Source: an uncultured Deferribacterales bacterium
GTDB taxonomy: Bacteria > Chrysiogenota > Deferribacteres > Deferribacterales > Mucispirillaceae
NCBI GenBank assembly: GCA_947853665.1
Contig: CANTXF010000012.1
Coordinates: 1 to 64,000 of the forward strand
Direction: 5' to 3'
DNA length: 64,000 nucleotides
Below, in pieces: positions 9,697 through 13,025 of this stretch (the first letter of the stretch is position 1; each line of letters begins with the position of its first letter). Position numbers and translations under genes: made by a program. The notes beneath the pieces were generated by a model. That model made no database searches. It had not been told where the DNA came from and saw only the letters and a program-made list of their open reading frames with translations.

Positions 9697-9731
9697 AACA
9701 TTCTCCTTGAAATAAAATATAAATCAGCTAT

Positions 9732-9989
9732 CCCCTGACGAAGATAGTTATTGTAAATGATCGGGCGGCTCATCTGCCGACAAAGATAGTTATGGAAAAT
9801 AACTATACTGCCGGCTCATCATGCGCGGCAAGCATTTATAATAAGACCCGCTCCATACAAGGCACAATCAAGGCCAGGCCGCCAGAATGCGCCTTATGAA
9901 AACGCTTTTGCTGCGGTTATTCATATCGCCGTGCAAGCCTCCGTATTATAAACATTTCCCGCCGCTTTGCATTGATCTATGTAAAGAGT
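9732..9989. repeat. dispersed MITE-like repeat, copy C
   Basis: Left arm CCCCTGACGAAGATAGTTAT and right arm around TATAAACATTTCCCGCCG to 9989, in the orientation of copies A and D. A second AGATAGTTATGG at about 9783 suggests a partial duplication of the left end. TA borders the ends. The copy is followed by the conserved flank TATGGCTTGC and lies head-to-tail with copy D. Confidence 0.7.
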
Positions 9990-10017
9990 ATGGCTTGCAA
10001 AAAAAATAGGCGGCTAT

Positions 10018-10229
10018 CCCCTAACGCAGATAGTTATGGCAAATGATCATAATAATGCTGCGCACCGTCAAAAACATTCATAATAAGACCAGCGCTGCAC
10101 GGCAAACTTATGCGAAAGCCCCTTTAGACAGCGCCTGGCCAAGCACTTTTAGTCTTATTATTCATTGCCGCGGGCAAGCCGCCGTACTATAAACATTTCC
10201 CGCCGTTTTGCGCTGATCTATGCAGGGGG
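10018..10229. repeat. dispersed MITE-like repeat, copy D (best preserved)
   Basis: Left arm 10018-10056 begins CCCCTAACGCAGATAGTTAT; right arm 10187-10229 is its imperfect reverse complement. Internal AATAAGAC (10082-10089) pairs with GTCTTATT (10152-10159). The reverse complement of this copy aligns with copy B along most of its length. Confidence 0.8.
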
Positions 10230-10325
10230 CATGGCTTGCGAAAAAATATAATATATCCTCACTGCACCGATAATCCGGGCGCGCCGCCTTTTCTTCGCCA
10301 TAAAAGCTCTTTTACGCGGCAGCAT

Positions 10326-10417: not shown

Positions 10418-12130
10418 TCAGGCTAACCCGTAATCTTCAAGCAGTTTTTCCGCCCGTTTATCGCTTTTAGGCTGCTGCACCTGCAAAAAGCCCACGATAG
10501 CGCCTATTCTCGCGCCCATATCCTCTATGGATTTGATGACCTTGCGCAGCTTTTGTTCCGTAATATCCTGAAATTCAAGAGCTTCCAGTATCTTAAAGCC
10601 AAGCTCCTCCGCTTTGGAAAGGTTGCCGCAGGTTTTGGCGTAAAGCTCGTTGAACTCCGCCTCGTGCTCTTTATCCGCCAGGCTTTTGAGCTTTTTAATA
10701 TCTTCTATGAAATCCTTGTAAAAACCGGACATACTGTCTGAAGCGTCCATAAGATTAAAGGCGGCTTTTTCCGTAGTGTCGTTTACGTCCTCCAGCACGG
10801 AAGCCACATTGGGGATAGCCTCCTGAGACGCTTTTATAAACGGATTTATTTCGTCGACCTTGGTTTTAGTATCTATGATAAGCCGGAGCAGCTCGCCGAT
10901 CTCCCCTTTTATATCAAGGTTAAGGCTTGCAGGCTCCTCGCCGGAAATGATCTTGTCGGCTATGCGCTTTAACTCTTTTATGGATACCCTGACGGATTCG
11001 GAATCGGTTTTCGCTTCGGCTTCCGAAATAACCGGCCCGTCTACGACATTGTCGGGAGAGACGGATACGGACGGTTCCCCGTCATTTTTTTTTTCCGTTT
11101 CGCCCCTTTCTTCCCGGTGGCGGCGGTTAAGCTCGTCCGTTTCGGCTTCCCTTTTGGCAAGCTCCTGAGCTATGAGAGAATCCAGGTCTCCCTGGTCTAT
11201 ATGCTGGTCGTTATCTTCCGCCGTTTTAAAAATGGCGGAGCTTTGGGCAAGAGCGTCGGCTAAAACTTCTTCACTGCTTGGCTGAGAGCCCGTTCTTTTT
11301 TTTTTATTCAGTTCTTCAGTCTCGGCTTCCCTTTTGGCAAGCTCTTTCGCGATAAGGGCGTCGATATCCCCCTCTACCTCCGCGTCGGCGGATGCGGCGG
11401 CTTCTTCCACCGGGGCTGCGGAAACGGGAGCTTCTTCCTTTATCTCCGATATTACGGGAGAAGGGACCTCATCCGGCCTGGGAAGGTCGTCCTTAACGGG
11501 AGTTTCATGGGCGGAGATTTCCTCCTCCGGCTCGTCGTGCACGGATATTGCGGGAATCTCCTCCTGGGGCTGAACCGCCGGAGCAGGAGCGGGAAGCTGC
11601 TGATTTTTAGCGGAGGAACCGAGCATTTTCTTGCGCAGCTCGCTTTCTATATGCTCCCCGCTTTCGTTAAGCACCCGGTCAATGTCCAGAAGCATTATAA
11701 GGCGGGAGTCGTATTTGCATATACCGAGGATATATTCCTGGCCTATGGAGCCTACAAGGGGAGGCGTAGGCTCCACCATGGATTTGCGTATTCTTATAAC
11801 TTCCGTAACTTCGTCCACCACGAAGCCTATATACTGCCTTTCAAAACGCACGACGATAATCCTTGTGGATTTGTCGAAATCGCATTTATCCAGACTGAAG
11901 CGCACCCTAAGGTCTATAACGGGGATAACCTTGCCGCGAAGGTTCATAACGCCCAAAATAAAAGAATCCATTCTGGGCACCACGGTAATTTCCACGGTAC
12001 GGATTATTTCCTGAATTTTAAGAACGTCTATGGCGTATTCCTCGTCCCCCAGCTTCATTCCAACAAGCTGGACGACCTCGGCTTCGTCGCTCAATATTTC
12101 GACGTCTTCTTTTTCATGAATTTCATTCAT
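10418..12130 (-). CDS. CheW-CheZ fusion protein with duplicated linker motif
   Basis: The 570-residue protein joins two chemotaxis modules. Residues about 20-160 are a CheW-like adaptor domain (VGMKLGDEEYAIDVLKIQEI, VMNLRGKVIPVIDLR, ILGICKYDSRLIMLLDI). Residues about 170-375 are an acidic, proline-rich linker containing two near-identical 25-residue units (252-276 and 312-336; core LIA.ELAKREAET.ELN). Residues about 375-570 resemble CheZ, the CheY-phosphate phosphatase: FQDITEQKLRKV carries the expected Asp522 and Gln526, and the tail LLEDYGLA resembles the CheY-binding C-terminus of CheZ. The fusion would place CheY-P dephosphorylation at receptor arrays. The gene overlaps flhG by eight bases and is followed by a terminator. 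Domain calls are by eye; the CheZ assignment rests mainly on the DxxxQ helix and tail. Confidence 0.82.
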   Translation of the reverse strand: MNEIHEKEDVEILSDEAEVVQLVGMKLGDEEYAIDVLKIQEIIRTVEITVVPRMDSFILGVMNLRGKVIPVIDLRVRFSLDKCDFDKSTRIIVVRFERQYIGFVVDEVTEVIRIRKSMVEPTPPLVGSIGQEYILGICKYDSRLIMLLDIDRVLNESGEHIESELRKKMLGSSAKNQQLPAPAPAVQPQEEIPAISVHDEPEEEISAHETPVKDDLPRPDEVPSPVISEIKEEAPVSAAPVEEAAASADAEVEGDIDALIAKELAKREAETEELNKKKRTGSQPSSEEVLADALAQSSAIFKTAEDNDQHIDQGDLDSLIAQELAKREAETDELNRRHREERGETEKKNDGEPSVSVSPDNVVDGPVISEAEAKTDSESVRVSIKELKRIADKIISGEEPASLNLDIKGEIGELLRLIIDTKTKVDEINPFIKASQEAIPNVASVLEDVNDTTEKAAFNLMDASDSMSGFYKDFIEDIKKLKSLADKEHEAEFNELYAKTCGNLSKAEELGFKILEALEFQDITEQKLRKVIKSIEDMGARIGAIVGFLQVQQPKSDKRAEKLLEDYGLA

Positions 12131-13025
12131 TTCCTGACCCCTGAAGTTTAGCTATCATCTGGTCGCGTATATCGTCCACGCAGCCTACAGTCTCGCTGTC
12201 CGGAAACCGGACGTAATAAGGTTTAAGCAGTTTGATACACTCGCTTACTTTTTCATCATAAGGTAAAAAGCCAAGTTTTTCAATGGTAATACTCAAATAT
12301 TTATTAACTACGTTTTCAAAGCCGTAGAATACATTAAGCTCCCTTTTGAATTTTACCTGGTTCAGAATCATGCCCGGCCTGAAAGCCGAAACGAAAGATT
12401 TTATCGCCGCCGCCGCCGCTTTATCCACCGCCGCGGCCGCATCTATTATAGACTGGACGCTTGGGAAATTCATGCTTTTGCTGCGGAGCTTTTTATTGAT
12501 TTCGGCAAAATCCCACCGTTTAGACAAAAAACGCTCTATGTGCCTGTATATGGCGACCTTTAAAAAACCGTAGGCGTTTTCTATGGAGGTAGGCTCGCCG
12601 CTCATGACGACTATCTTTATATCGGCCACGTTGAACATATCGACCATATTAAAGCTGGTGCCTGCTCCAAGGTCGAGTATAACGTACTCGTAATCCTCGT
12701 TTTTAAGGCCGGTAAGTATTTTTATCTTTTCAAATTTGGTAATATGGGCCATGCCGAGAACGTCGCCGGAACCGCCTATGAAATCCACCCCGGCGGGGGA
12801 TCTTACTATAACGTCCGAAAGCTCGGAGCGCTCCCTTATATAATTGTAAAGGCCCACGCCCGGAACCTTGAGCCCGACGAAATTGTGAAGATTGGCCCCG
12901 CCCAGGTCCGCGTCAACGAGGAGAACCTTATGCCCGGCGGCGTTAAGAGAAATGGCAAGGCTGGAGGAACAGAAACTTTTACCTACGCCGCCTTTTCCGC
13001 TTGCAATGGATATGAGCTTTGCCAT
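12123..13025 (-). CDS. flhG: MinD/ParA-family ATPase, FlhG-like
   Basis: A 300-residue deviant-Walker ATPase: SGKGGVGKSF at residues 9-18, LLVDADLGGANLH, and YEYVILDLGAGTSFNMVDMF. FlhG proteins set flagellar number with FlhF and the C-ring. The pairing with a chemotaxis gene (eight-base overlap) favours FlhG over cell-division MinD. No amphipathic C-terminal membrane helix of the MinD type is evident; the C-terminal part (about residues 170-300) is not of canonical FlhG sequence and is the least certain portion. It has its own predicted promoter. Confidence 0.78.
   Translation of the reverse strand: MAKLISIASGKGGVGKSFCSSSLAISLNAAGHKVLLVDADLGGANLHNFVGLKVPGVGLYNYIRERSELSDVIVRSPAGVDFIGGSGDVLGMAHITKFEKIKILTGLKNEDYEYVILDLGAGTSFNMVDMFNVADIKIVVMSGEPTSIENAYGFLKVAIYRHIERFLSKRWDFAEINKKLRSKSMNFPSVQSIIDAAAAVDKAAAAAIKSFVSAFRPGMILNQVKFKRELNVFYGFENVVNKYLSITIEKLGFLPYDEKVSECIKLLKPYYVRFPDSETVGCVDDIRDQMIAKLQGSGNE

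Follow-up and report, generated by a model that had tools for sequence, protein, structure and literature searches.

Why does one gene of this bacterium join CheW, the adaptor of the chemoreceptor array, to CheZ, the phosphatase of phosphorylated CheY (CheY-P), and why does the linker between them carry two near-identical copies of a short motif that resembles the N-terminus of FliM? The window analysed here, a stretch of 64,000 nucleotides from an uncultured Deferribacterales bacterium, holds this gene on its minus strand at 10418–12130, as an open reading frame of 570 amino acids. We lean towards a joint picture in which slippage produces two forms of the adaptor, both with CheY-docking helices, and slippage is the firmer half of that picture. 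The fusion would consist of an array adaptor (CheW), a disordered linker and a CheY-P phosphatase (CheZ), and two short linker helices of the type found in FliM and in CheZ tails would most likely tether CheY to the receptor array, with a preference for CheY-P. The ten adenines right after the second helix would make RNA polymerase slip in a fraction of transcripts, giving a CheW–repeats–CheZ protein (570 aa) and a CheW–repeats protein that lacks CheZ (349 or 362 aa). Slippage would in this way fix the share of array adaptors that bear the phosphatase, with the docking helices kept on both forms.

Domains, orthologs and frames of the fusion

The CheW domain (residues 21–156, 11663–12070, minus strand) stands clearly over its family cut-off (Pfam PF01584, E 1.7e-39, 135 bits against 23.5), and it matches CheW chains of the PDB (E 1.2e-27). 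The CheZ domain (residues 409–557, 10460–10906, minus strand) is marginally over its own (PF04344, E 2.5e-07, 31.2 bits against 30.7), and the fusion does not reach the NCBIfam CheZ equivalog model (23.5 against 257 bits). Within this domain the heptapeptide FQDITEQ (10553–10573, minus strand) is kept in nine aligned orthologs and presumably corresponds to the catalytic Asp/Gln of CheZ; both residues are present, and the CheZ half is a candidate CheY-P phosphatase. Comparison with orthologs shows the C-terminal tail (residues 556–570, 10421–10465, minus strand) to be degenerate in the window's protein, unlike the SQDDIDKLLSDFGL type of tail in many of them. CheW and CheZ are the only families over cut-off in the Pfam scan, which found neither a FliM domain nor a receiver domain; judged by its domains, the fusion is no FliM and merely resembles the FliM N-terminus. 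The organism has two CheZ proteins, since a stand-alone CheZ is encoded besides the fusion (L050:1652-2332), right after CheY and before CheA in the FliM cluster. Whole-protein structure prediction (AlphaFold2, 13 sequences) was poor (mean pLDDT 50, pTM 0.21), and the repeat helices alone were used. At 9720–10250 of the window, near-identical intergenic phrases (CTATCCCCT, GATAGTTAT and others) that look like dispersed repeats were seen by eye.

A CheW–linker–CheZ gene with the motif occurs in 44 of 50 Deferribacterota genomes, counting one gene cut by a contig end (G029) and one that runs off its contig (G012). It is missing from six (G016, G023, G025, G035, G045 and G046), of which the first three yielded no FliM either and G035 is 78% complete. 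The other two belong to the small-genome family f9, in which an ATPase gene and CheW are kept without detectable CheZ: in G046 (L129, contig C37) the ATPase and CheW are accompanied by a single repeat, set in a long TDAS-rich linker, with neither CheZ nor adenine run detected, and in G045 (L128, contig C32) no repeat was seen beside ATPase and CheW. A contig search with the single fusion protein gave no matches. A search with an alignment of repeats and CheZ gave 38 loci, all under Deferribacterota names (Mucispirillum, Calditerrivibrio, Denitrovibrio, Seleniivibrio and Deferribacteraceae among the matches), namely 29 with all or part of the fusion and nine stand-alone CheZ genes (L117–L125); the restriction of the fusion to Deferribacterota is not proven by this, because the two peptide patterns of the search could miss distant fusions. 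In one ortholog, L116 (Deferribacterales bacterium MS499-41, 881–2176), FQDITEQ is lost, CheZ is degenerate, one repeat is left and the adenine run is absent, and the gene adjoins the same FlhG-like ATPase. The run and a working CheZ thus tend to co-occur, neither being found in L116 and G046 (few cases), with L048, which has CheZ without the run, as a counterexample. As these few cases illustrate, a repeat can persist with CheW alone, without CheZ.

CheW and CheZ are read in one frame in 34 genomes. In nine of the 44 (G001, G003, G005, G006, G017, G024, G040, G041 and G044), all from genus groups g2 and g15 and family f4, the CheW–repeat frame stops at or just after the run; in G006 the CheW half was read to the contig end and the CheZ half lies on another contig. 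A one-base shift at the run reopens the frame towards CheZ in these split genes, one A more being needed in seven and one less in two (L033 and L040). The frame is uniform within genera, with ten of ten g3 genomes in frame and four of four g2 genomes out of frame. The out-of-frame CheZ of three g2 genomes gives dN/dS values of 0.10–0.13 in three pairs, similar to the 0.07–0.11 of three unsplit CheZ genes of g3; the CheZ of split genes is thus under purifying selection in g2, the sole split group in which this is measurable, synonymous sites being saturated in g15 and f4. G041 (L023) has two further stops towards and inside CheZ and one in FliM, which makes its assembly or its gene doubtful, and whether these stops reflect real decay or assembly errors is uncertain. 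A separate start for CheZ in the split genes was considered and rejected, as the position of the first in-frame start codon varies from gene to gene and inspection by eye shows no ribosome site in common. The downstream linkers of two split genes (L026 and L037) carry long tandem repeats of their own (ELPEDLEDIL.. and SLLDTADSLLDTAD..).

The duplicated linker motif and its candidate partners

Residues 252–276 and 312–336 had been described from the sequence as near-identical copies, and the pair alignment confirms this: the copies agree at 18 of 25 residues and, in the DNA, at 51 of 75 bases; the best pair of linker 25-mers scores 99 (BLOSUM62) against a maximum of 61 among 2000 linker shuffles. 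Repeat 1 (VEGDIDALIAKELAKREAETEELNK) lies at 11303–11377 and repeat 2 at 11123–11197, or 11123–11203 when its HIDQ lead-in is included (residues 310–336), both on the minus strand. The duplication is also visible in the DNA, as claimed, in a 20-base string at 11143–11162 and again at 11323–11342, the two occurrences in the window, where 100 shuffles lead one to expect none. The two old repeats share 23 consecutive identical bases, synonymous sites included (11142–11164 and 11322–11344), which may reflect recent gene conversion. A search of the organism's own genome with the repeat 2 motif gave no match elsewhere at E <= 10. A third conserved motif, SSEEVLADALAQSS, lies between the repeats (11237–11278, minus strand) and is found in most orthologs of the order in the form [IV]LxDA[LV]xQ[SA]. 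AlphaFold2 predicts one helix per repeat (256–279 and 313–348) and another at 286–306, with pLDDT 87 at residues 261–270 and 88 at 321–330 in a model that is poor overall. What the earlier reading overlooked is a run of ten T on the forward strand, hence ten A on the coding strand, after each copy (11296–11305 and 11085–11094).

Conservation of the repeat in orthologous fusions had been named beforehand as one test of the proposal, and the repeats are indeed present, mostly in two copies. Copy number rises to three or four in family f10, g2 has a further, weaker copy, and one copy is reduced in f4. The consensus is approximately [DNS][IL]Dx[LM]IAxELxKRExETxEL, and nine aligned sequences agree without exception on the residues D, L, I, A, E, L, R, E, E, T and E of repeat 2. 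Few linker columns are invariant in the alignment of nine orthologs, and repeat residues are among them. The linker motif is old, recurring in the orthologs of 44 genomes.

The sequence-only reading had further likened both copies to the CheY-binding N-terminal helix of FliM. The organism's own FliM begins with ADILSQDEIDALLSTV and the stand-alone CheZ near FliM ends in DQDLVDRLLKEFGV. Repeat 2, the most FliM-like and CheZ-tail-like copy, reads HVSQDELDSLI or YVSQDDLDALI in orthologs, compared with ILSQDEIDALL in the own FliM, and the CheZ tail of many fusion orthologs (SQDDIDKLL) resembles it as well. The FliM N-terminal motif itself had 28 matches over 30 FliM loci and was not seen at L069 and L070. 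The background for two profile scans was 47375 own-genome 11-mers, drawn from the window and three other stretches. With a CheZ-tail profile built from ortholog sequences, repeat 2 comes third, behind FliM in first place and the stand-alone CheZ in second, and repeat 1 is joint eleventh. With a FliM profile, repeat 2 is eleventh and repeat 1 sixtieth. Both copies in the window belong with the weaker matches to the FliM-type motif, the window's repeat 2 scoring 18.8 compared with 29.5 for the two ortholog forms. The claimed likeness is partly supported: each copy is predicted to be helical and repeat 2 comes closer in sequence, while repeat 1 is without the SQ part, scores lower than repeat 2 and stands low with the FliM profile. 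At the level of sequence the likening to FliM appears sound, with the CheZ tail as the closer match.

What these helices would bind can be approached from their relatives and from their neighbours. CheZ tails are CheY ligands, and the genome encodes CheY, in a 130-aa frame next to the stand-alone CheZ on contig C17, as well as a FliM with LSQDEIDALL. EIDAL motifs bind CheY, according to the accessible part of PMC6946799. We give CheY an even chance of being a partner of the repeats. The repeats are not simply an accessory of the phosphatase, because they are retained by the CheW half when the frame is split, and because one copy persists in L116, with its degenerate CheZ, and in G046, in which no CheZ was found.

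The neighbouring gene suggests another partner. A FlhG/FleN-like ATPase of the MinD family (12123–13025, minus strand), whose nearest PDB relatives are named FleN (E 3.2e-26), overlaps the start of the fusion gene. It lies directly upstream of the fusion in 43 of 44 genomes (elsewhere in G024) and is present in 47 of 50, the exceptions being the three genomes that yielded no FliM. According to the part of PMC12826062 consulted, FlhG works through the N-terminus of FliM, which makes the ATPase a serious rival. The FliM-like helices might bind it and not, or not mainly, CheY, a reading that we consider rather unlikely; by analogy with ParC and ParP, the ATPase would then set the array at the cell pole via the CheW-linked helices, and the adenine run would only set the share of CheZ. 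Gene adjacency and the retention of repeats with the CheW half of split genes fit such a partner, as does the single repeat beside ATPase and CheW in G046, but G045 keeps ATPase and CheW with no repeat seen, and repeat 2 matches the CheZ tail, a CheY ligand, as well as it does FliM. The organism also has a second FlhG, on contig C17 beside a FlhF-like gene (both names are our reading of the sequences), of which the ATPase is a paralog with 37% identity. Docking of CheY stays the function that we would assign to the helices in what follows.

The adenine run and the two-product reading

Downstream of repeat 2 the coding strand has the sequence GAA AAA AAA AAT GAC, with its run of ten A at 11085–11094 (minus strand), the proposed slippage site. 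One extra A turns this into GAA AAA AAA AAA TGA, so that the TGA at 11082–11084 (minus strand) is met at once and a CheW–repeats protein of 349 aa ending in EKKK results; one A fewer gives 362 aa. One A extra or missing in the run after repeat 1 (11296–11305, minus strand) would cut the protein short at 286 or 289 aa, and a third, single-repeat product may arise there. Runs of 10–11 A after repeat 1 were observed in all 11 genomes of g1 and g3, and runs of 9–10 A between the repeats in eight f6 genomes.

A run of 10–14 A between the last repeat and CheZ is found at the corresponding place in 43 of 44 fusion genomes, over nine families (42 of 43 rows of the run table plus G029, added from a separate frame reading; the one exception is L048). 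Its length is exactly ten A in 34 of the 43, 11–14 in family f6 and 11 in L033. The run begins 6–19 codons downstream of the repeat core in families f1 to f8 and 216–248 codons downstream of it in f10, and it stays while phase and encoded residues vary (EKKN, EEKKKI, SKKKI, ELNKKKKI). These counts take in related genes and not independent ones. Runs of at least ten A occur at five places in the organism's own genome (2.43 Mb); two are in the linker of the fusion, and none of the other three lies deep inside a long frame. Of twenty further A10 sites in six genomes, most fall outside long frames; some (L140, L144 and L149) sit well inside one, so that A10 in coding sequence is rare but not unique. 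No A or T run of nine or more occurs in 30 FliM loci (106077 bases).

In unsplit genes with the run, both shifted frames stop within three codons in 27 of 33. Such early stops count solely over many genes, because 2–35% of linker positions per gene do likewise, and the window's site is among the weaker ones, with one alternative frame running 14 codons and a quarter of the linker positions doing as well. Programmed slippage has been recognized by an A run of at least nine, conserved in homologs with the same overlapping frames (accessible part of PMC1088944), and the orthologs of the fusion agree with this sequence criterion in run length and frame conservation. Poly-A slippage also gives two needed lengths of one protein in tssM (PMC4256274, in the part consulted). 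We infer from this pattern that slippage occurs, that it is transcriptional and that both forms are used; the run probably yields CheW–repeats with and without CheZ. Ribosomal frameshifting is less likely than polymerase slippage because both shift directions occur and no shared RNA structure was detected near the run (mean z −0.59 and −0.22). The first of these values refers to the 80 bases downstream, with 22 of 44 genes folded and single genes reaching −3.9; programmed −1 frameshifting with a stimulatory structure is disfavoured, as no stable common structure was detected 3' of the slippery site in the genes folded.

The run could also be a phase-variation switch at the DNA level, with slippage in replication toggling the fusion on and off between cells. 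The zero frame does differ between genera, and the run reaches 11–14 in f6 and 11 in L033. However, a fixed state fits better than a switch, because 34 of 43 genomes have a run of exactly ten A and the frames are uniform within g3 and g2, a comparison that covers one genome per species, and we hold phase variation to be improbable.

Synonymous codon shuffling leads one to expect A10 or longer somewhere in the reading frame in 23.3 of 44 rows, against 42 observed, and in the AT-rich g3 genes the chance of A10 per single gene is 0.7–0.97, so that the run is nearly expected there. Positional controls are stronger: only four of 20 other lysine stretches with the potential for A9 have it, compared with a run in 42 of 43 at the site, and in family f10, with loci of 51–56% G+C, the run is retained by two of the three genomes. 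An ordinary spacer, in which charged helices separate CheW from CheZ and the run arises incidentally from the lysine codons of AT-rich genomes, would suit the shuffling of AT-rich genes and the lysines at the ends of the repeats, but we find it the least credible reading in view of the lysine stretches that mostly avoid a run, the f10 runs kept 216–248 codons from the repeats, the purifying selection on CheZ of split g2 genes and the repeat residues among the few invariant linker columns.

Polymerase slippage remains our preferred account of the run. More tentatively, and with somewhat less than even confidence, slippage might set the ratio of phosphatase-bearing to phosphatase-free adaptors across the phylum. 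Both forms would bear internal copies of the helix by which the motor docks CheY; the array would rival the motor for CheY, a constant fraction of its sites would extinguish the CheY signal, and the helices might also engage the FlhG-like ATPase.

Significance and known systems

If these proposals are true, RNA polymerase slippage sets the number of phosphatase-bearing array sites, a new way of tuning chemotaxis, and plain frame reading mistakes one gene for two in at least nine of the genomes considered here. A FliM docking motif would have been copied into an array protein, and competition of array and motor for CheY-P would become open to direct test. Mucispirillum, a commensal of the gut, belongs to the group. 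A search of the literature outside subscription papers found no published report of a CheW–CheZ fusion or of its slippage, and neither CheW nor CheZ appears in the accessible text of PMC3711429 or in the first part of PMC5009743. Slippage with two products is already known, and the new element would be its place between an adaptor and a phosphatase of chemotaxis, conserved over a phylum, for which our searches gave no precedent.

Several systems offer partial parallels. The N-terminus of FliM (EIDAL) and the C-terminal peptide of CheZ have the same SQ[DE][DE][IL]DxL[LI] core at a helix start, whereas the motif here is internal to a linker, duplicated and followed by a longer conserved tail (AxELxKRExET). 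ParC, to which the CheW-like array protein ParP is tied, is an ATPase of the MinD/ParA type located at the pole. In ParP the region that binds ParC is N-terminal and the AIF domain C-terminal (PMC5706961, in the part consulted). The fusion was rejected as a ParP because this arrangement is absent: its CheW is N-terminal, from residue 21, its CheZ is C-terminal, and the ATPase is FlhG/FleN-like. CheV, as described in the accessible part of PMC12691637, likewise fuses a CheW domain to a module of the CheY signal, but CheV carries a receiver and the fusion a phosphatase.

In enteric bacteria, too, an array protein comes in two forms, and one of them recruits CheZ to the array. There, CheA-short is made from an internal start of cheA and CheZ is a separate protein. 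Localisation of CheZ by CheA binding is described in the part of PMC7750401 consulted. In the fusion, CheZ is covalently attached and the choice of frame lies on the 3' side. The closest parallels to the run are the slippage genes, namely tssM of Citrobacter rodentium and Yersinia, dnaX of Thermus and those of IS elements, which share the long coding poly-A run and the two lengths per gene; the zero frame of tssM gives the short form in one species and the long form in another (PMC4256274, in part), as it differs between genera here. Compared with these, the present case, known so far from its sequence, is a chemotaxis gene, extends over a phylum and would split an adaptor from an enzyme.
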